DNA from: Polynucleobacter paludilacus
Lineage (GTDB): Bacteria; Pseudomonadota; Gammaproteobacteria; Burkholderiales; Burkholderiaceae
DNA length: 64,000 bases
Assembly (NCBI RefSeq): GCF_018687595.1
Contig: NZ_CP061298.1
Coordinates: 434,001 to 498,000, forward strand
Direction: 5' to 3'
A model generated the notes under the pieces. That model searched no databases. It had not been told where the DNA came from and was given only the letters and a program-made list of their open reading frames with translations. Of this stretch, positions 49,032-58,342 are shown piece by piece. Positions within the stretch are counted from its first letter, which is position 1, and every line of letters starts with the position of its first letter. The position numbers were made by a program, and so were the translations under genes.

Positions 49032-49122
<91 letters not shown>

Positions 49123-49325
49123 ACCCTTTCTGCCTCTAAATACTTCTATCTTTTAATAGCAGATATCCCCAAATCCGACTAAAATTGGCAAAAGAGCAGT
49201 ATTTGCTTATTTATTCCATTTGGCTGTCATTCTCCAACAACAGCATTTGCTAGCGCTTTGTATAAAAGACGTACTGCACTAGACACATTTAGTTAGCTTA
49301 TAAAAGTTTGTATTCAGAATTTATC

Positions 49326-52300
49326 GTGCTTAAGAAAGCTGCACGGCAATCGTGCCTCTTCATTATTTCCGTACTTGCCTTAGATGTCGCAATGGCAGGT
49401 GGGTCAAACATTGCCCCGAATACTCTGCCAACCGGTGGACAAGTTGCCGCAGGAAGCGCCACGATTTCTAGTACAAGTACTCCACAATCTGCCGTCATGA
49501 ATGTCAACCAAACTTCACAACGCGCAGTGATTAATTGGAATTCTTTTAACGTGGGTTCTAATGCCACCGTTAACTTTAATCAACCCAATGCACAAGCAGT
49601 TATTCTCAATCGGGTGACCAGTGGTTCGGCCTCAGTGATTAATGGCGCCATCAATGCCAATGGCCAAGTCATCTTAGTGAACAGTAGTGGTGTGACATTT
49701 GGTAGAGGGGCGGAAGTCAATGCACCTGGCGTTGTTGCATCTACGCTCAATATGGCCGATAAAGAATTTATGGCCGGTAGCAATACCTTCATCGGCGATG
49801 GCACTGGCAAGATTATTAATAAAGGCACGATCACTTCCACTGCGGAGGGCGGTTATATTGCACTCTTAGCTCCTGAGGTGCGTAACCAGGGTTTCCTGAT
49901 TGCCCAAAAAGATTCCACTATCGCTATTGGCGCCGGCAAGCAAATTACCCTGAACTTTCAGGGTCAAGCATTAATTTCACTGAAGGTCGATCAAGGCTTG
50001 TATAACGCCATGATTCAGAATAAGCATGCGATTGAGGCGCCCAGTGGTTTAGTCATTATGGCTGCGGGGGATGCCAATCAACTGATGGCTAGTGTAATTA
50101 ATAACACTGGCACGATTTCTGCATCGAGTATTGTCAAAAATGGTGGTGTGATAGAAATCGTTGCCGCTGCGCTTAATCAAGCGGGCAGCATCTCCAGCAA
50201 TGGCACGGGTGCTAATAGCACTGGTGGTCAAATCAATTTGGTTGGTAGCAACATCACTTTGGCAAGCGCTTCTACGACTAGCGCCACTGGGGTGAGTGGC
50301 GGCGGCCAAGTTAATATTGGTCTCGGTAATACTGCTGTGACAGGCGGCAGCCAAGTGAACGTTGCTAACCCTAGCGCTTTAAGTAATGCACAAGCCCAAG
50401 CGCTCTCAGCAAACAATGCCGCGCTAGCAAGTCAAAACAATACGATGGCTCAGACAGTCACCATTCAGAGTGGTGCGGTAGTGAATACCTCTGCAACGCA
50501 AGCGGGTAATGGCGGCATCATTTCTATTTGGTCGCAAGTCAAGACCTCCGTTGCAGGTATCTTGCAAGCCATGGGCGGCGCTTTATCTGGTAATGGTGGA
50601 TTTATTGAAACCAGTTCAAGAGGCGCGGTAGATTTTTCAAGCACAGCGCAAATGAATACCACTGCACCCAATGGTAAGACTGGAACTTGGCTCCTAGATC
50701 CAACTGATATTTATATCAATACCTTAGGTGCAGGAACAATCAGCTCTGCTTTAGCAAACAACAATGTCGTTGTCGATGTCTCTAGCGCTACTGTCTGCGG
50801 ACAAGGTTATGGTGCTTGCTCAGGAACCACCGGTAATCTCACTGTTGGCGCTGACATTATCAAAATGGGTCAAAACTTGACTACCTTGACGCTTACATCA
50901 ACAGGAACCTTTAACCTCAATGCCAACATTACTGGCCAGAATTTAAACGTAGTTATTAATAGCTCGATTGCCTATCTCAATGCTGGCTATACTATTTCTG
51001 CAACGCAAGTTACCGTTCAAGCCCTGAGTTCGATTTACTCATCGGGTTCGATTCTGACCACTAGTCAATCGGGTTCATCACTCTTGAGTCTGATCTCTCT
51101 GATGGCTCAAGCAATTTATATTAACGGCACCTTATCAGCGACCAGCGTTAACTCATCTGGCGGCTCAATTACTTTAAGCGGTGACCAAATTACGATTAAT
51201 ACTGGTGGGGTGGTTTCTGCAGACGGTACTGCAACAGGTGGCGCAGTTGGAGCAATTTATATCACTAGTACTGGCTCGTTTATTGATCAGGGAGTTATCG
51301 AAACTAATGGTGTCAATACTGGGGGCGCAATTAATATCACGTCTGCGAGCGACAGTAGCTTTACAAATGCTTCTTTAAAGGCTAATGGTTCTAATGGTAT
51401 GGGGGGCTCAATATCCGTTACATCCAGTAACGGTAGTATCACTATTCAAAATACGAGTTTACTGGCCATTGGCGCTAATGGATCAGGGGGTTCTGTCTTG
51501 CTAGATGCTTATGGCAATATCACCTCAAATACAGGCACAATCATGACTGATGGAGTAACTGTAGGCGGAAGTACTACCTTACATGCGCACACTGGAAATA
51601 TTGGACTAACTAGCTCAGTATTTCAGTCCCAAAGTGCGAACAGCACTTCAGGAAGTATCGGTGGTCACATCAATTTGGTCACGAATAGCGGCTCCATTCT
51701 ATTTTCCGGATCAGATCTTTTGGCGCATGGATACCTAACCCCTGGAACCATCGAAATCAATACCCTTTCATCAACTGGCGTATTAACAAATGCGGATTAC
51801 TTTGGTATTGATGCTGCATCGATAGTTGATGCCACTCAATTTGTTGCTGGAAGGGCAAGTCAAGTGACTACAGTTTCATCTACGCTGAATACTGCTTATG
51901 CTCCCCCTCCGCCACCTCCACCTCTCATGGCCCTACCGAATCCGATGACCTTGAGCTTGAACTCATTAATGCCAATGGGGCCTCAGAGTCCACAGGGTCC
52001 CCAAGGGCCACAAGGGCAACAAGGGCCCCAGGGTTCTCAATCTGATCCAGCTGCCGGATCTTCAAATGGCTTGATGAATATGGCATTCGGACCGCCCGCT
52101 GGGACGAATGGGCCTAATGGCGCTCCTGGGCCGCTCGGTCCTAATCTGGGTTTTGCTCCACCCCCAGGAGCGCCAGGTGGCGATCCTAATGCGCTTGCTG
52201 GTGGTCCTTCTGGAACGAATGGTCCCAATGGAGTCAACAACCCCAGCGGTCCAAATTCTGGTTTAGCCCCGCTCCCAGGTTCAGCAGCGGTTGCTGCAAA

Positions 52301-52838
52301 TGGTCAAGCTTTGAATGGACAGCCTGTTAATGGCCGCCCACCAGCACCAAACTCACAAGCCAACAACAGCTCATCAAGTGGTAATGCGCCTCCACCTCCG
52401 CCGCCTAGCGCAAGCAATGGCCAAAGCTCTAATAATCAGCAGGCCGCTCCAGCCAAGCCTCCTTATGCTGGTAAGTATGCTAACGGCCTTCCCAGTAGCA
52501 CTCAGGCAAGCTCGACCAAGCCACCCCCTAGTCAGGCAAACTCTTATCAAGGTAAATACGCTGCCCGAGTCCAGACTGCAAGTAAAAACCCAACATTCCC
52601 AGTGAATGCCGCCAATGATCCCATTTATGGCGGGATGGGATCTAAGGGGCCTGCTTTAGCTGTAGTTGGCCTGCCTACCTCGGCCTCGGATGGCTTATCC
52701 GCGTCCTATGACAGCGTGCCATCTACAACAAATGCAGGGATCAATCATGTGGGTCAATCTCATCTTTCTAATGCCTACAAAGAAAGTCTAGAATCCACGA
52801 ATCTGACAGCAACCATGAATATATTGATCGGACTCTAA
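49326..52838 (+). CDS. Two-partner-secretion exoprotein (TpsA, filamentous-hemagglutinin-like) with collagen-like tail
   Basis: This exported protein of about 1170 residues has a signal peptide ending AMA-GGSN and a TPS domain (about 25-165) with INANGQVILVNSSGVTFGRGA and APGVVASTLNM, the hallmark of filamentous hemagglutinin/HMW-type exoproteins. A long beta-helix of degenerate repeats (GGxIxI with N/S/T-rich turns) runs to about residue 860. The tail has poly-Pro, Gly-Pro-Gln collagen-like triplets, GTNGPNG units and two YxGKYA motifs. GTG 49326 gives the cleanest signal peptide; TTG 49308 is possible. A TpsB-type pore gene at 56555 is its likely transporter. The function may be adhesion or surface structure. 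Confidence 0.85.
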   Translation: MLKKAARQSCLFIISVLALDVAMAGGSNIAPNTLPTGGQVAAGSATISSTSTPQSAVMNVNQTSQRAVINWNSFNVGSNATVNFNQPNAQAVILNRVTSGSASVINGAINANGQVILVNSSGVTFGRGAEVNAPGVVASTLNMADKEFMAGSNTFIGDGTGKIINKGTITSTAEGGYIALLAPEVRNQGFLIAQKDSTIAIGAGKQITLNFQGQALISLKVDQGLYNAMIQNKHAIEAPSGLVIMAAGDANQLMASVINNTGTISASSIVKNGGVIEIVAAALNQAGSISSNGTGANSTGGQINLVGSNITLASASTTSATGVSGGGQVNIGLGNTAVTGGSQVNVANPSALSNAQAQALSANNAALASQNNTMAQTVTIQSGAVVNTSATQAGNGGIISIWSQVKTSVAGILQAMGGALSGNGGFIETSSRGAVDFSSTAQMNTTAPNGKTGTWLLDPTDIYINTLGAGTISSALANNNVVVDVSSATVCGQGYGACSGTTGNLTVGADIIKMGQNLTTLTLTSTGTFNLNANITGQNLNVVINSSIAYLNAGYTISATQVTVQALSSIYSSGSILTTSQSGSSLLSLISLMAQAIYINGTLSATSVNSSGGSITLSGDQITINTGGVVSADGTATGGAVGAIYITSTGSFIDQGVIETNGVNTGGAINITSASDSSFTNASLKANGSNGMGGSISVTSSNGSITIQNTSLLAIGANGSGGSVLLDAYGNITSNTGTIMTDGVTVGGSTTLHAHTGNIGLTSSVFQSQSANSTSGSIGGHINLVTNSGSILFSGSDLLAHGYLTPGTIEINTLSSTGVLTNADYFGIDAASIVDATQFVAGRASQVTTVSSTLNTAYAPPPPPPPLMALPNPMTLSLNSLMPMGPQSPQGPQGPQGQQGPQGSQSDPAAGSSNGLMNMAFGPPAGTNGPNGAPGPLGPNLGFAPPPGAPGGDPNALAGGPSGTNGPNGVNNPSGPNSGLAPLPGSAAVAANGQALNGQPVNGRPPAPNSQANNSSSSGNAPPPPPPSASNGQSSNNQQAAPAKPPYAGKYANGLPSSTQASSTKPPPSQANSYQGKYAARVQTASKNPTFPVNAANDPIYGGMGSKGPALAVVGLPTSASDGLSASYDSVPSTTNAGINHVGQSHLSNAYKESLESTNLTATMNILIGL
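51978..52040 (+). repeat. Collagen-like Gly-Pro-Gln triplet repeat in the exoprotein
   Basis: About seven consecutive Gly-X-Y triplets (GPQ SPQ GPQ GPQ GQQ GPQ GSQ, with one Ser replacing Gly) are encoded directly after a poly-proline run at 51902-51929. Two further GTNGPNG units (near 52099 and 52210) extend the Gly/Pro/Asn-rich tail. Codons vary, so the repeat is maintained at protein rather than DNA level. Confidence 0.8.
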
Positions 52839-52887
52839 GATACTGCTCTAATAGGACAAATTCCACATTAATGGTTCTTAAGAGAGC

Positions 52888-53661
52888 ATGATTCAATTTC
52901 TGCATTCCGCCTCCAATATTGTTGATGGCTTACTCCTTATCTTGGTTGGCTTATTGTTCTCAACGGGCATTCCTTGGTACATCCGTTGGAAATATCAACT
53001 CAATCCCAGTGAGCATTTTGCAAAGGGTGCAGAGGAGGGCTTTAAGCTCTTCACCTCGATTACTTTGCTGTTAATTGCTTTCTCGTTGGTACGAGTTCAA
53101 GGCGATCACCGCAACGTGGAAGATTTAGTCTCTAGAGAATCCGCTGTGATTGTGAAGCTCAATCGTGCACTCGTGAGTTATGGTGGCAGAGATGCTGCAG
53201 AGCTCCGCAATGATCTAAAGGATTATGCGAATTCTTTGGTTGTGGATGAGTGGCCTAAAATGTCTCAGCGCGAGAGAAGTGAAGACTCTTCTAATAAACT
53301 AATTGACCTGACTCAGGGCATACGGTTATTAGATCCTAAAACTTCGGTGCAGCAACTGGCCCGCTCAGAAATCTTAAGCTCCTTAACGCAACTGTCAGAT
53401 GTGCGAGAAGCACGTTTATCCGCTAGTCATTTAGAGTTACCTCATTATTTATCTCAAGCTTTAATTGTTTCGATCACGATGCTCATCGTGTTTGGCTGGT
53501 TTCAGAATCCCTTGCAAAAAATGGTCGCCCATGTTGCTGGAGTGAGTATTGGCGTCTCGCTATTGCTGACATTATTAATTGCACTAGAGGGAATTTTCTT
53601 GGGCGAAAGCCAGGTAACTTCTGAGCCGATTGCACGTATTTTGCCTCTGCTAGGAGCTTAG
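52888..53661 (+). CDS. DUF4239-like inner-membrane protein
   Basis: This 257-residue protein has four predicted membrane helices in two pairs (about 10-31 and 52-70, then 190-207 and 212-236) with a soluble 120-residue segment between them containing RNDLKDYANSLVVDEWPKM. This layout and the YANSLVVDEWPKM segment resemble DUF4239 (bestrophin-like) proteins, whose role is unknown. It begins 49 bases after the exoprotein gene, with AAGAGAGC as ribosome site, and ends 5 bases before the first binding-protein gene, so it belongs to the same operon. It could form a channel or a membrane scaffold. Confidence 0.65.
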   Translation: MIQFLHSASNIVDGLLLILVGLLFSTGIPWYIRWKYQLNPSEHFAKGAEEGFKLFTSITLLLIAFSLVRVQGDHRNVEDLVSRESAVIVKLNRALVSYGGRDAAELRNDLKDYANSLVVDEWPKMSQRERSEDSSNKLIDLTQGIRLLDPKTSVQQLARSEILSSLTQLSDVREARLSASHLELPHYLSQALIVSITMLIVFGWFQNPLQKMVAHVAGVSIGVSLLLTLLIALEGIFLGESQVTSEPIARILPLLGA

Positions 53662-53666
53662 TCATT

Positions 53667-54452
53667 ATGAAGGCAAGCGAAGCGAATTCCATTAAGCAAT
53701 ACATTCAATTGCGTGGTTCAACGACCTTGCTCAGCTCAATACAAGCGATTGGTTCCCAATACATGGATGAATATCCGAGTATTGGCTTGCCTTTGTTGGG
53801 TGGTGGAACTAGCGCTGGTTATAAGTCTGTCCTAGATGGCACAGCAGATATTGGTATGGCCTCGGGCGCCATGCCTGAAGATATGGAAATCTGGGCAACC
53901 GCTCATAAACGTGCAGTACGCTCGATCAATATTGCTTATGACGGCATTGCCGTGATTGTGAATGCATCTAATTCCATTACCAATTTGAGCTTGGTTCAGC
54001 TCAGGGATATCTTCACAGGCAGAGTTGGTAACTGGAACGAAGTCAGCAAGTTATCAGGCAAGATTAATGTATACAGCCACCATCCTCAACGCGGCACCTA
54101 TGAGCCTTGGAAAAGATTAGTAGTGGGCAAAGAGCACATTACCCTGGGTGCGCAAATTGTGAACGACCATAAAGAGTTATTTGCCGATTTACTGAAAGAC
54201 CCCTTAGGTATTAGCTATGTCAGTACAACATTCTTAGGTAAGGCGAATCTCAAAGTGCTATCTGTAAATGACTTTCTGCCAACCTACGAGAACCTGCGTG
54301 CTAATCAGTATCCGATTCGTAATAATCTGTTGTTGATTGCCCCTGAGCAAACCTCGGATCAAGTTAAGCAATTTATTGATTACTGCTTGAATCCTAGCAA
54401 GGGGCAGGCCTTAATTAAAAAAAATGGCCTAGTGCCTATTGTTACTGGATAA
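53667..54452 (+). CDS. PstS-like binding-fold protein without signal peptide
   Basis: This 261-residue protein has the PBP-like fold of PstS-type phosphate-binding proteins: RGSTTLLSSIQAIGSQYMDEYP at the N terminus, GGGTSAGYKSVLDGTADIGMASG, LRDIFTGRVGNWNEV and a C-terminal FIDYCLNPSKGQALIKKNG. The ligand-loop residues GSTT and GTSAG are present, so anion binding is plausible. It starts directly at the domain with no signal sequence or membrane segment, unlike secreted relatives. An upstream start is excluded by stops, and TAGGAG lies before the ATG. It is therefore probably cytosolic unless it is carried by a partner. Confidence 0.75.
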   Translation: MKASEANSIKQYIQLRGSTTLLSSIQAIGSQYMDEYPSIGLPLLGGGTSAGYKSVLDGTADIGMASGAMPEDMEIWATAHKRAVRSINIAYDGIAVIVNASNSITNLSLVQLRDIFTGRVGNWNEVSKLSGKINVYSHHPQRGTYEPWKRLVVGKEHITLGAQIVNDHKELFADLLKDPLGISYVSTTFLGKANLKVLSVNDFLPTYENLRANQYPIRNNLLLIAPEQTSDQVKQFIDYCLNPSKGQALIKKNGLVPIVTG

Positions 54453-54464
54453 GACTTTAATTCA

Positions 54465-55295
54465 ATGGAACGTAGAGAGCTTCTGAAGCGTGTTGGACTG
54501 GGGTCCCTGATTGCAGTTGCTGGTGTGGGTGGCTTATATTCCTATCCCTTAATCTTTTCAAAGGCACATAAAAGTCTCATGATTGCTGGATCTTCAGCAG
54601 TCAGTCGATTCGTATCCTTCCTAGTCGAGCCTTTCTTGAAGCAAGACCCCAATGTGGATATAGCGCTAGAAGGTGGCGATTCTTTAACGGGCTTAGTCAG
54701 TCTAGTGAATGGCGGTATTGACATTGCCATGATGTCGAGAGGACTCTCGTTTGACGAGTACAACCCAGACTTGGTGGTTAATCTCTTGGGTTTCGAGGGG
54801 GTGGCATTGATTGTGAACCCCAATAATCCTGTGCAAGGATTAAGTATTGAACAAGTCAACGGCATCTTGCGTGGTCAAATTAAGAATTGGTCTGAGCTAG
54901 GTGGGCTTACTGGGGAAATCCAGGTATACGGTAGAAACGAAAGCTCTACCACGCGAGGCTTAATCCAATACTTTGTGATGAAGGGTGCCGCCTTTTCTAG
55001 TAAGACCAAAAATTTAGAGAGCGCTAAACAAGTAGTTGACGCAGTTGCTGGTGATCGTAATGCGTTTGCTTATGTCACTGCAAAATATTTAGAAAATCGG
55101 ATACGCGGACTTGCCATTGGTGGGGTTGAGGTAAGTAATAAGTCATTGTTGCTTGGTACATACCCCTTGCGTAGAGAAATCTTTCTCGTAACTAAAACAC
55201 CGAGTACGGCGGTAACGAAGCAATTTATTGCCTTTGGTCTTGGGAATGCCGGACAAGATATTCTAGAAGACCGTGGCTTAACGAGAATCAATTAA
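54465..55295 (+). CDS. PstS-like binding protein with twin-arginine-type N terminus
   Basis: This 276-residue PBP-like protein starts MERRELLKRVGLGSLIAVAGVGGLYSYP, an RRxLLK twin-arginine-type signal or uncleaved anchor, so export through Tat or retention at the membrane is likely. The domain follows: AGSSAVSRFVSFLVEPFLK, ALEGGDSLTGLVSLVNGGIDIAMMSR, VNGILRGQIKNWSELGG and YGRNESSTTRGLIQYFV, then a C-terminal helix. It is homologous in layout to the preceding gene, from which it is separated by 12 bases, but diverged in sequence. No permease or ATPase genes accompany it. The ligand is unknown; phosphate-like anions are possible. Confidence 0.77.
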   Translation: MERRELLKRVGLGSLIAVAGVGGLYSYPLIFSKAHKSLMIAGSSAVSRFVSFLVEPFLKQDPNVDIALEGGDSLTGLVSLVNGGIDIAMMSRGLSFDEYNPDLVVNLLGFEGVALIVNPNNPVQGLSIEQVNGILRGQIKNWSELGGLTGEIQVYGRNESSTTRGLIQYFVMKGAAFSSKTKNLESAKQVVDAVAGDRNAFAYVTAKYLENRIRGLAIGGVEVSNKSLLLGTYPLRREIFLVTKTPSTAVTKQFIAFGLGNAGQDILEDRGLTRIN

Positions 55296-55301
55296 ATATC
55301 T

Positions 55302-56555
55302 ATGGCTAAGGAAATCATCGAGAAAGACTTTGAAGACTACGTACATGATGGTCTTGAATGGCTTAGAAGCAAACATCATATTCGTAAGGGCTTGGCCTTA
55401 ATCGCGATTGCGTGTTTGGTAGGGGTTGCTGGCAAGTTTGCTTATGAGCTCTATCCTCGTCACTATAAGATGACAGTCAGCGGCGGCGGTATGTTAACTA
55501 AGAGTCACTTCCTTGCCAAAATCTTGGAAGAAGAGGCTTCCCAGCAACGCTTATCTCTGAAAGTAGCACCTACTCCCGGATCTTATGAGGCTCTGCAGGC
55601 GCTTGACAATGGCAGCTTAGATTTGGCTTTTGTGCAATCTGGTATTGATGTATCGAATTACCCCAACGTGCGCTATGTGGCCTCTATCGAGCCCGAACTG
55701 GTGCAGTTCTTGGTTAAACCCAACATCAAACAAATTGCTGACCTCAAGGGTAAGACTATCAACCTTGGTAAAAAGCATGAGGGTGTGAGTGTTATCTCTA
55801 ATCAGATTTTGCATTTCTCAGGATTTGTCCCCGATGTGGATTTCACCGAGACTGACTTCAGTGATGAAGAGCTCTTAAGCATGAAGCCTGATTTACTGCC
55901 TGACGTGATTGTTCAGGTGGCATACGCTCCATCACCAGTCGTCGATTTCTTGGTGCAAAAGCGGGACTATCGCTTATTGGAAATGCCATTTCCCCCATCT
56001 TTAGCCACACGCTTGGGCTGGGTGGCGGACAGCAAAATTTTGGCTTACATGTATCGGATTGTTCCGCCTGTACCCTCAACTGATATTCAAGTGGTTGGGG
56101 TCAACTTAAATATCCTCGCGGGAAAAAATGTCGACCCCAGAGCCATCGTGAAATTCTTAAAAGTCCTTTACAGCCCCTTTACGGCAGCGCGGTTTGGAAT
56201 TCCGATTCCTGAGGATCGTTTCTTGACCTCGTCGGGATTTCAGCTCTCATCTGGAACCGAAGCCTACATAGAAGAAAAGCAGCCGTTTATTACCAATGCT
56301 TTGCTTGATCGCATTAAAGCCACGATTGGTTTGATCATGAGCTTAGGATCTATTCTCTTGGTGGTGTTCAAATGGTTTAGAAGGCCAGAGGATGATCAAG
56401 AGGAGTCCGAAGAAGTTCCAGCGTCTCACGGCGATCTACCTGTGACAGCCTCCGTGCATGACGTTGTAGTAACAACAGGCCCCTCTACTGCAACGACATC
56501 GGTAACAGATCGTTTGGGTACGGCTATCTCTAGCGTGGAATCTCTCGATAAGTAA
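55302..56555 (+). CDS. TAXI-family binding protein anchored by two membrane helices
   Basis: This 417-residue protein has an N-terminal cytosolic stretch (about 1-27), a first helix (about 30-48, LALIAIACLVGVAGKFAYEL), a periplasmic TAXI/TRAP-type solute-binding domain (about 55-330, with GSYEALQALDNGSLDLAFVQSG and IADLKGKTINLGKKHEGVSV), a second helix (about 338-357, LIMSLGSILLVVFKWF), and a 60-residue acidic, Thr/Ser-rich cytosolic tail. TAXI proteins normally bind solutes for TRAP carriers, but no TRAP membrane subunit is here. The double anchor and tail suggest a receptor. Its TAA overlaps the TpsB ATG (TAATG). Confidence 0.75.
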   Translation: MAKEIIEKDFEDYVHDGLEWLRSKHHIRKGLALIAIACLVGVAGKFAYELYPRHYKMTVSGGGMLTKSHFLAKILEEEASQQRLSLKVAPTPGSYEALQALDNGSLDLAFVQSGIDVSNYPNVRYVASIEPELVQFLVKPNIKQIADLKGKTINLGKKHEGVSVISNQILHFSGFVPDVDFTETDFSDEELLSMKPDLLPDVIVQVAYAPSPVVDFLVQKRDYRLLEMPFPPSLATRLGWVADSKILAYMYRIVPPVPSTDIQVVGVNLNILAGKNVDPRAIVKFLKVLYSPFTAARFGIPIPEDRFLTSSGFQLSSGTEAYIEEKQPFITNALLDRIKATIGLIMSLGSILLVVFKWFRRPEDDQEESEEVPASHGDLPVTASVHDVVVTTGPSTATTSVTDRLGTAISSVESLDK

Positions 56556-58342
56556 TGAGTATTTTTCAGGTTCGTATGATGTGCTCGTTGAAGAGCTTGC
56601 TTCAAAGTGTAGTCTTAACAGCCTATTTGATAACGGTGACACAGCATGTTTTGGCTCAAGTCGATGCAGGCGCCCTACAGCAAGGGCTTGAGAGGCAGTT
56701 ACCGTCCACCAGCCCGCTAGCATTGCCCCAGATTGAAACAAGCAAGCCAGCGCAGCCAAGCGCCCCTACTGGGAGTGAGGTTCGCTTTACACCGACCCGT
56801 TTTGTTTTAGAGGGAATTCATTCTCTACCAGAAGCAGAAGTGCAGGCTGTGCTTCAACCATGGCTCAACATTCCAGTCAGCTTTGAAGACTTAAGACGAG
56901 CATGCGATGCGATTCAAAATCTCTATCGCAGTAAAGGTTTGACCGTTCAAGCAGTAGTTCCACCGCAAAAAGTGCAAGACGGCGTTGTGAAGATTTTGAT
57001 CACCGAGGCAAAGTTAGGGAAGGTGACCGTAGAAACTCCCAAAGGAGAAACCCGCTTTAGCAAAGAGCGTGCGGCAAGCTATATCACTTATGCCAATCCC
57101 ATCAATGAGCCGCTAAATATGGAGTCACTCCAAAGAGCGATCATTATTTTGAATGAGACCCCTGGCGTTGCTGCTAATGTGCAGTTACAAAGAGGGGTAA
57201 ATAAAGGGGATGTTGATGTCAACGTCCAACTCACTCAGCCTGAGCTCTTGCAAGGGCGAGTTGAGGTGAATAATTATGGCAGCCGTACTACTGGAGCAAA
57301 TCAGGCAGTTGTTTCATTGAATCTCAATGGACCACTGGGTATTGGCGACTTCGCTTCACTTAATACGATTTCTTCACAGGGCTCGCAATATCTGCAGGGA
57401 TTAATCTCTCTGCCGGTAGATGAAAATGGCTTACGTTTTGGTATATCCGGGACTTACTTGCAATACATCGATGTGAGCAACTATACCGATAACGGAGGGA
57501 AGGGTACTGCATGGACAACGGGCTTAAGTGCTGCCTATCCCGTTCTGCGTAGCGCAGGCGCCAATCTCAACGCCAGCCTCAATTACGATATTAAAAGTTA
57601 TAACAACATTAACTTTTTGACGGATACGGTTACTAGCGCTTACAACATCAATAACCTTTCGGCTGGATTATCTGGCAACTTGGCTGATAACTTTTTTGGA
57701 TCGCCAGCAGTAAGCGCTGGCACTGTGACATTGATTTTGGGGCACTTACAAATGCTAGCCACTAGCCCAGTAAGTTATGGCGCCTACGATGTTCCGAATT
57801 CTTCTCCGACTGCTTATGCGCCGATTACACCATCTAATTTTGCTAAAGCAACATTCTCTGCTTTACGTAATCAACAGCTCTTTGGTGATGACATCACATC
57901 ACTATACACATCGCTCTCGGGTCAACTTGCTTCCGTAAACCTCAACTCTGCTGAGCAGATCTATCTCGGCGGGCCTTATGGCGTGCGTGCCTATCCTCTA
58001 TCTCAATCGGGAGGTGCTCAAGGCGGGTTATTTTCATTAGAACTTAGACAAAAGCTAGAAACAAAATTGATGGTGTATGGTTTTTTTGATGCTGGTGTTG
58101 TTCAGCAATACAAGGCCCTCTATCCGAGCTGGCAAGGCGAAACCAATGCCAATAATACTTACTCGCTCATGGGGGCAGGGTTTGGGGTGAAATGGGATTA
58201 TGTTGGCTGGAACCTGGGCGCCATGGTGGCCTGGAAGGTAGGCATCAATCCCTTGTATAGCTCTACTGGACAAGCGGTGAATACCGACGGTACGACAACT
58301 CAGCCACGTGGCTGGGTCACTGCAGCCTACGCTTTCCAATAA
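56555..58342 (+). CDS. Two-partner-secretion outer-membrane transporter (TpsB, ShlB/FhaC family)
   Basis: This 595-residue outer-membrane pore secretes TpsA exoproteins. It has a signal peptide ending VLAQ, a Pro-rich plug linker, two POTRA domains (about 75-230; VRFTPTRFVLEGIHSLPEAE and RRACDAIQNLYRSKGLTVQAVVPPQ), and a 16-strand barrel with the conserved L6 loop GGPYGVRAYP (about 470-480, the VRGY motif of FhaC, here VRAY). Its ATG overlaps the stop of the TAXI-like gene. The exoprotein partner is five genes upstream rather than adjacent, an unusual order, and the four genes between may take part in the same process. Confidence 0.88.
   Translation: MSIFQVRMMCSLKSLLQSVVLTAYLITVTQHVLAQVDAGALQQGLERQLPSTSPLALPQIETSKPAQPSAPTGSEVRFTPTRFVLEGIHSLPEAEVQAVLQPWLNIPVSFEDLRRACDAIQNLYRSKGLTVQAVVPPQKVQDGVVKILITEAKLGKVTVETPKGETRFSKERAASYITYANPINEPLNMESLQRAIIILNETPGVAANVQLQRGVNKGDVDVNVQLTQPELLQGRVEVNNYGSRTTGANQAVVSLNLNGPLGIGDFASLNTISSQGSQYLQGLISLPVDENGLRFGISGTYLQYIDVSNYTDNGGKGTAWTTGLSAAYPVLRSAGANLNASLNYDIKSYNNINFLTDTVTSAYNINNLSAGLSGNLADNFFGSPAVSAGTVTLILGHLQMLATSPVSYGAYDVPNSSPTAYAPITPSNFAKATFSALRNQQLFGDDITSLYTSLSGQLASVNLNSAEQIYLGGPYGVRAYPLSQSGGAQGGLFSLELRQKLETKLMVYGFFDAGVVQQYKALYPSWQGETNANNTYSLMGAGFGVKWDYVGWNLGAMVAWKVGINPLYSSTGQAVNTDGTTTQPRGWVTAAYAFQ

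Follow-up and report, generated by a model that had tools for sequence, protein, structure and literature searches.

The stretch of DNA considered here (the window) comprises 64,000 nucleotides (nt) of the Polynucleobacter paludilacus genome (NZ_CP061298.1, positions 434,001-498,000, forward strand), and the positions below are window coordinates. It contains a cluster of six open reading frames (ORFs), all on the + strand, which encode a two-partner secretion (TPS) exoprotein (TpsA), a bestrophin-like membrane protein, two PstS-like proteins with the fold of periplasmic binding proteins (PBP1 and PBP2), a TAXI-like protein and an outer-membrane pore (TpsB). The first five genes form a block that recurs in other species of the genus, and with three binding-like proteins but no importer it hints that the secreted fibre is tethered or controlled in a way not described before. 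The six co-directional genes and the gaps between them, which from TpsA to TpsB measure 49, 5, 12, 6 and -1 nt, were reproduced from the ORF coordinates exactly as given in an earlier note on this DNA, and its family calls are upheld by Pfam and NCBIfam profiles for all six proteins. The genes, with two segments of TpsA, are listed here.

49326..52838, + strand: TpsA exoprotein, 1170 aa counted from GTG 49326 (PF05860, E=3.6e-35; TIGR01901, E=1.6e-23)
51900..52691, + strand: low-complexity linker of TpsA, 264 aa, rich in Pro, Gly, Ala, Ser and Asn
52692..52838, + strand: conserved C-terminal tail of TpsA, GLSASYDSVPST...YKESLESTNLTATMNILIGL (alignments, tail profile)
52888..53661, + strand: bestrophin-like (formerly DUF4239) inner-membrane protein, 257 aa (PF14023, E=2.8e-28)
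53667..54452, + strand: PBP1, PstS-like domain (PF12849, E=8.4e-29)
54465..55295, + strand: PBP2, PstS-like domain with a twin-arginine-type N-terminal anchor (PF12849, E=6.9e-30)
55302..56555, + strand: TAXI-like protein, anchored at both ends (NMT1_3, E=2e-13)
56555..58342, + strand: TpsB outer-membrane pore, POTRA_2 and ShlB/FhaC barrel (PF08479, E=5e-16; PF03865, E=1.1e-21)

The core of this cluster is ordinary type Vb secretion. TpsA, the start codon of which is ambiguous (TTG 49308 or GTG 49326), consists of a signal peptide, a TPS domain and a presumed beta-helical body, followed by the linker and the tail. Its N-terminal hydrophobic segment spans residues 9-27, and the TPS domain scores 122.5 bits against PF05860 (cut-off 33.5), with an NPXG domain match as well. 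The signal peptide and TPS domain of TpsA, together with the POTRA domain and ShlB/FhaC barrel of TpsB, are the features that define type Vb secretion, and the cluster shares them with the FhaB/FhaC and HMW1 class, as it does a possible internally retained C-terminus of the exoprotein. Descriptions of type Vb secretion usually require no more than an exoprotein and a pore in the outer membrane. Here, in contrast to that class, four extra genes are present and TpsB is unlinked in most carriers. If confirmed, a conserved set of inner-membrane partners, with a TpsA tail that tracks the bestrophin-like gene, would add a layer of control or anchoring to type Vb secretion.

The distribution of the genes was determined in 186 Polynucleobacter genomes, with further samples of 399 genomes of the order and 369 of the class. 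A close ortholog of the bestrophin-like gene (66-100% identity) occurs in 14 of the 186, and a 40% relative in two more; close named relatives come from Polynucleobacter isolates and freshwater metagenome-assembled genomes (MAGs). In each of the 14 carriers the five genes TpsA, bestrophin-like, PBP1, PBP2 and TAXI-like are complete and in the same order, and the internal gaps never exceed 51 nt in the ten block loci tabulated. Random loss of the middle genes, named beforehand as grounds for abandoning the idea of a single system, was never observed. All six genes of the window are under purifying selection when compared with those of a second carrier, G016 (dN/dS, the ratio of nonsynonymous to synonymous divergence, 0.008-0.12; TpsA, 0.12). 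The arrangement is more than chance, because the five-gene order recurs in 14 species and the six genes are under purifying selection. The distribution is also narrow, with few other occurrences in the order and class samples: the bestrophin-like subfamily gave no further match in the 369 class genomes at E 1e-25, and a plasmid search returned no bestrophin-like match and only weak, distant TAXI matches.

The limits of the block could be drawn from its neighbours. In 12 species it adjoins exbD and a small gene (small155) that comes next after the TAXI-like gene, and a tRNA-Leu(TAA) lies directly upstream of TpsA in eight of these 12 (L033, L035, L069-L074), those in which the contig stretch reaches that far. 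Two block-free genomes, G018 and G036, have acylase, tRNA-Leu, small155 and exbD at the same site. Since this empty site keeps small155, that gene is resident, and the unit inserted or lost is exactly five genes; small155 was therefore rejected as a sixth component, as were ExbB/ExbD/TonB as partners, which are likewise resident at empty sites. In the window and G016 the block follows a tRNA-Ser(CGA) and has TpsB as its sixth gene; panD is the next gene after TpsB. There is good support for TpsA and the bestrophin-like, PBP1, PBP2 and TAXI-like genes being a single block, inherited or mobile. The single system proposed in the earlier note is partly supported: the middle genes are complete in 14 of 14 carriers and no forward terminator-like site lies in the gaps, but its unit is five genes, and TpsB lies elsewhere in 12 of the 14. 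The terminator evidence is weak: all forward terminator-like sites fall within ORFs, and their count equals that expected from shuffled sequence. The block is real, conserved and narrow in distribution, and its function is putative.

TpsB is joined to the block only in the window and G016 (2/14). TpsA (PF05860) and TpsB (PF03865) nevertheless co-occur across the 32 genomes searched, apart from G136, a technical exception in which the end of the contig cuts TpsA off. Exactly one TpsA and one TpsB are present in the window genome (G000), G016, G033, G026, G120 and G113; in the last four the single TpsA belongs to the block, and the single TpsB lies roughly 26-102 kb away and is 64-68% identical to that of the window. 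Three of these unlinked TpsB genes (G033, G120 and G113) are located between nadA/nadC/nadB and pgm/pgi genes; the fourth (G026) shares the pgm/pgi side and has a different large protein as its opposite neighbour. In other species the pgm region holds a TpsB, a giant TpsA or both. The TpsBs of the window and G016 group with the unlinked ones in a TpsB tree, at moderate support (85/91). The separation of TpsA and TpsB by four genes, which the earlier note had regarded as unusual, is therefore true of the window, but the tree and neighbourhoods indicate that in this lineage alone a pore gene which is normally unlinked became joined to the block, and an order with an accessory gene inside and TpsB last was already known. 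In the bcpAIOB genes of Burkholderia, TpsA comes first, accessory genes lie between and TpsB is last (PMC5422565). That the pore joined the block is an argument that the two work together. TpsB is probably the cognate pore for TpsA with no need for linkage, and export would proceed through it, for which the six genomes with one of each give indirect support. Such species also make the proposed partner role of the block directly testable in small free-living genomes.

A side observation concerns the size of TpsA-type proteins in these genomes of about 2 Mb. Very large TpsA-type open frames occur in Polynucleobacter, the longest being 15,362 aa in G118 (C1 ~1233588-1234328, minus strand), and giant frames of 6,000-9,650 aa occur in several others (G143, G018, G036, G114 and G065).

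The resemblance to bcpAIOB, with TpsA first and TpsB last (PMC5422565), raises the possibility of a contact-dependent inhibition toxin system of the BcpA/CdiA type with accessory genes. The two loci share this order type, but the present one has neither a polymorphic toxin end nor an immunity gene, and its middle part encodes membrane and PBP-fold proteins. The TpsA C-terminus is conserved between species rather than polymorphic, no toxin domain was found, and the next gene encodes a conserved membrane protein instead of an immunity protein. Such a system is most improbable and was rejected on the conserved C-terminus and the missing immunity gene.

The conserved end of TpsA is a tail of about 48 residues, alignable across the 14 species. 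A profile built solely from these 14 TpsAs was run against 2,308 ORF C-termini of the loci collected. Besides its training set it recovered the TpsA of G498 (E=7e-10), which belongs to another family, and had matches in two Comamonadaceae MAGs (E ~1e-5), with no other match below E 0.3 among those C-termini. In G498 and one of the MAG loci (L143) the bestrophin-like gene directly follows the tail-bearing TpsA, and in another (L142) a 46% bestrophin-like relative lies beside the tail match, while inspected TpsA ends with no adjacent bestrophin-like gene gave no match to the profile. The tail thus accompanies the bestrophin-like gene in two further lineages within the order, a newly described association. 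The order in G498 is TpsA-bestrophin-like-TpsB, and P. rarus and G188, which carry the 40% relatives, have only TpsA and the bestrophin-like gene, followed by other genes. Because the TpsA–bestrophin-like pair is kept with different neighbours, it is older than they are. A transporter-less binding protein recurs beside the pair.

Two of these surroundings may be recorded in their own right. In G188 (L145:1-8931) the TpsA end, the bestrophin-like gene, a coiled-coil protein, a protein with GAF/PAS/adenylate-guanylate-cyclase domains and a formylglycine-generating-type enzyme stand in a row. The Comamonadaceae/Burkholderiales MAG loci L142, L143, L146 and L147 are a second undescribed operon type, in which genes for a TPR-secretin, a pentapeptide-repeat protein and an orphan SBP_bac_3 protein come after the bestrophin-like gene; in L143 a TpsA end precedes the bestrophin-like gene, and L142 and L147 have two further unknown proteins.

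These data bear on the view that co-mobility alone has brought the TPS genes together with the bestrophin/PBP/TAXI genes beside a tRNA, and that they have no joint function. A tRNA gene does stand at the start of both sites, and the PBP1-PBP2-TAXI triad is separable, as described below for G388. Against this, the gaps are very small, the order is constant and no decay is seen in 14 species; the TpsA tail and the bestrophin-like gene stay paired in other lineages with different neighbours; and neither an integrase gene nor a tRNA-end repeat was seen. Mere hitch-hiking is accordingly quite unlikely.

The bestrophin-like protein is predicted to have four transmembrane segments and, around residues 77-180, a soluble domain of helices. 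It matches PF14023 at 99.5 bits (cut-off 32). Among ten genes for which the window was compared with G016, its gene shows the strongest constraint, with an identical protein at a synonymous divergence (dS) of 0.41 and a dN/dS of 0.008. Its structure model has a mean predicted local distance difference test score (pLDDT) of 65.9, and the Foldseek match of this low-confidence model to KpBest is weak, with a probability of about 0.9 but an E value above 0.1. The protein shares PF14023 with the bestrophin channels (KpBest, BEST1, VCCN1), and its model resembles them, but with such a fold match channel function is a family-based expectation. The literature searched yielded no bestrophin that is coupled to a secreted fibre. 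Two more bestrophin-like paralogs (22-26% identical) are present in the window genome outside the window (G000:C1:364198-364926 and 377008-377763, L158), and they are not adjacent to TPS genes.

The three PBP-fold proteins differ in ways that matter for their role. PBP1 and PBP2 belong to the PstS family, resembling TIGR02136 with scores under its cut-off, and the fifth protein is TAXI-like, with 56.7 bits against TIGR02122 (cut-off 84.35). Unlike PstSCAB and TAXI-TRAP systems, the block has no PstC, PstA, PstB or TRAP permease, PBP1 is signal-less with its loop lost, and the TAXI-like protein is doubly anchored. The earlier statement that the binding proteins have neither permease nor ATPase was borne out: no Pst or TRAP permease or ATPase gene lies in or adjoining the cluster, no PstC/PstA/PstB gene in the 14 blocks or flanks examined, and no TRAP permease gene near the TAXI-like gene among the window ORFs and the 14 blocks. 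Pst or TRAP uptake was rejected for that reason. The further conclusion drawn in the earlier note, that this argues against nutrient uptake, goes only as far as a classical permease. Transport could still occur in its absence, since the membrane protein is a member of a bestrophin-like (channel) family.

PBP1 has no N-terminal hydrophobic segment or signal peptide in any of the 14 orthologs, and in the window there is no room for one because the upstream gene ends 5 nt before it. Aligned to PstS structures, its anion loop S-R-x-D-x-S-G-T has become S-H-D-P-Q-L-G-T, with Arg replaced by His and Asp and Ser lost. A signal-less PBP1 with a lost PstS anion-binding loop, found in all 14, is newly described; the protein is probably cytoplasmic and not a periplasmic binding protein, which corrects the earlier note, where it is counted among the binding proteins. 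Its AlphaFold model is poor (pLDDT 52.8) and was left uninterpreted. A search of the order outside the genus for a wider signal-less PBP1 family gave solely ordinary PstS of pstSCAB-type operons. PBP2, on the other hand, retains the loop as R-x-E-x-S-x-T when aligned to PstS structures, with R, S and T kept and Asp replaced by Glu; R3 and R4 (the twin arginine), R157, E159, S161 and T163 are invariant in 14/14.

The TAXI-like protein was rightly described as doubly anchored, with hydrophobic segments at residues 30-48 and 338-356 that enclose the binding domain and precede an acidic C-terminal tail (nt 56370-56555). Positive residues lie on the cytoplasmic sides of both segments, and the TAXI domain should therefore be periplasmic. 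The tail has a conserved terminal motif in 13 of 14 species. A distant lone PBP1-PBP2-TAXI triad (28, 29 and 35% identity), also newly described, was found in G388, a genome of another family (L194:10492-15961). Its PBP1 carries a signal peptide and its TAXI-like protein lacks the tail; this genome is complete and gave no TPS domain match. The triad is thus a separable module, and that a signal-less PBP1 goes with a TAXI cytoplasmic tail is a lead to be followed. In G388 a TPR/GT41 glycosyltransferase gene follows the triad, with MFS transporter genes close by. An HMW1C-like GT41 glycosyltransferase was considered as a partner and proved uninformative, since GT41 occurs in 28 of 30 genomes tested, with TPS or not, and in many copies in G388.

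One alternative use of these proteins is solute acquisition, in which TpsA would capture a ligand source, PBP2 and the TAXI-like protein would collect a small molecule and the bestrophin-like protein would serve as the channel, as in HxuA but with a channel replacing the TonB receptor. TPS-assisted uptake by HxuA is a precedent (PMC5422565), thylakoid bestrophin-like proteins are implicated in bicarbonate uptake (PMC6708349), and the PBP2 loop is conserved. The Haemophilus HxuCBA genes likewise place a TPS exoprotein in an operon with envelope components, and the C-terminus of their TpsA is expected to be periplasmic (PMC5422565); the block, however, lacks a TonB-dependent receptor and has PBP-fold and bestrophin-like proteins instead. 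The exbD/exbB/tonB genes at the 12-species site are resident and also stand at empty sites, PBP1 is signal-less, and three receptors are needless for a passive channel, all of which makes acquisition rather improbable.

Alternatively, the bestrophin-like protein and the three PBP-fold proteins may be holdases or escorts in the assembly or quality control of the large TpsA and no longer sense solutes. This would fit their tight linkage to TpsA in 14/14, the ligand loop lost in PBP1 and the precedent of Burkholderia bcpO, which lies between A and B and is required for BcpA function (PMC5422565). It is unlikely all the same, given that the anion-binding residues of PBP2 are invariant, that a related triad exists in a genome with no detectable TpsA (G388), that other TpsAs of the genus, whose frames run to thousands of residues, have no such module at their loci and that PBP1 has no route to the periplasm. 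At the broader level of the earlier note, solute sensing or assembly linked to secretion is a plausible hypothesis.

The most likely mechanism is tethering plus sensing, to which a probability of roughly one in three (about 0.35) can be given: a type Vb exoprotein would be tethered by its tail to an inner-membrane complex of bestrophin-like protein and solute receptors, acting as a sensing and tethering module, not an importer. TpsB would export the TpsA body to the cell surface, and the conserved tail, past the long Pro/Gly-rich linker, would stay inside and dock on a complex with the bestrophin-like protein at its centre. On the periplasmic side, PBP2 and the TAXI domain would bind a small ligand, either an anion or a carboxylate; its state would be relayed across the inner membrane by the cytoplasmic tail of the TAXI-like protein together with the signal-less PBP1, and ligand binding might gate the bestrophin-like channel or else hold and release the fibre. 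A stricter version, a trans-envelope signalling or anchoring machine with the tail held by the bestrophin-like channel and display controlled by the PstS-like PBP2, the TAXI receptor and a cytoplasmic PBP1 reading the TAXI tail, is doubtful. The block, the link between tail and gene and the features of the proteins are shown; every interaction, the ligand and the direction of control are inferred.

Tethering and sensing are favoured because the block is conserved in 14/14, an empty site is seen, the tail is linked to the bestrophin-like gene and the PBP2 loop is kept. TpsA and TpsB co-occur, four genomes having one of each, unlinked; the order in G498 is consistent with this reading, as is the identity of the bestrophin-like protein at dS 0.41; and PBP1 is signal-less with its loop lost throughout, the TAXI tail being present with such a PBP1 and absent in G388. 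An internal anchor for the tail is supported by precedent, since the C-terminus of HMW1 stays internal and a periplasmic location is expected for the HxuA one (PMC5422565). The tail is linked here to a bestrophin-like membrane protein, in place of the disulfide loop in the pore or the FHA prodomain of the FhaB/FhaC and HMW1 class. If this is true, it gives a function to the bestrophin-like (DUF4239) subfamily and to transporter-less binding proteins, both usually misannotated as uptake parts.

Several points weigh on the other side. The fold match to bestrophins is weak and the channel role is a family-level expectation from PF14023; the TAXI tail of G033 has no terminal motif; the contrast between tail and PBP1 is a single comparison (block versus G388); and the triad need not go with TpsA, as it occurs in G388, where no TPS domain was found. 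P. rarus and G188 have TpsA and the bestrophin-like gene with a tail diverged beyond the profile, the Comamonadaceae MAGs match the tail only modestly (E ~1e-5), and the physical interactions proposed within the complex are predictions. No description of the six-gene composition was found in the open-access literature, a weak negative limited to that literature.

Two features lie upstream of the cluster.

49032..49121, + strand: tRNA-Ser(CGA), left boundary of the block in the window lineage, a neighbour and not a component (ARAGORN, Rfam)
49122..49325, + strand: upstream region of TpsA, a possible promoter region, with a 46-base run TTTGGCTGTC...GCGCTTTGT shared with G016

The 46 bases (49212-49257) are identical in G016, with diverged flanks, and include one Pho-box half-site, CTGTCAT. 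The full Pho-box pattern is weak, being reached by 5/300 and 10/300 shuffles, and was not seen upstream of the other clusters; Pho-box regulation was set aside as weak and limited to the window and G016. The point has some bearing on the pdtA/phdA/pdtB genes (PUMA3) of Pseudomonas aeruginosa, in which phdA is transcribed between the TpsA and TpsB genes and which are tied to phosphate starvation (PMC4971064). PUMA3 has no PstS-like, TAXI or bestrophin-like genes, whereas the present cluster has only the weak, lineage-limited half-site.

Neither a repeated tRNA 3' end at the block sites nor an integrase gene at the block was detected; integration at tRNA ends was dropped, and since no repeat was found, an integrase-type element is not claimed. 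G033 has the same tRNA-Ser(CGA) after serS with no cluster behind it. At both chromosomal sites that hold the block, the TpsA gene directly follows a tRNA gene.

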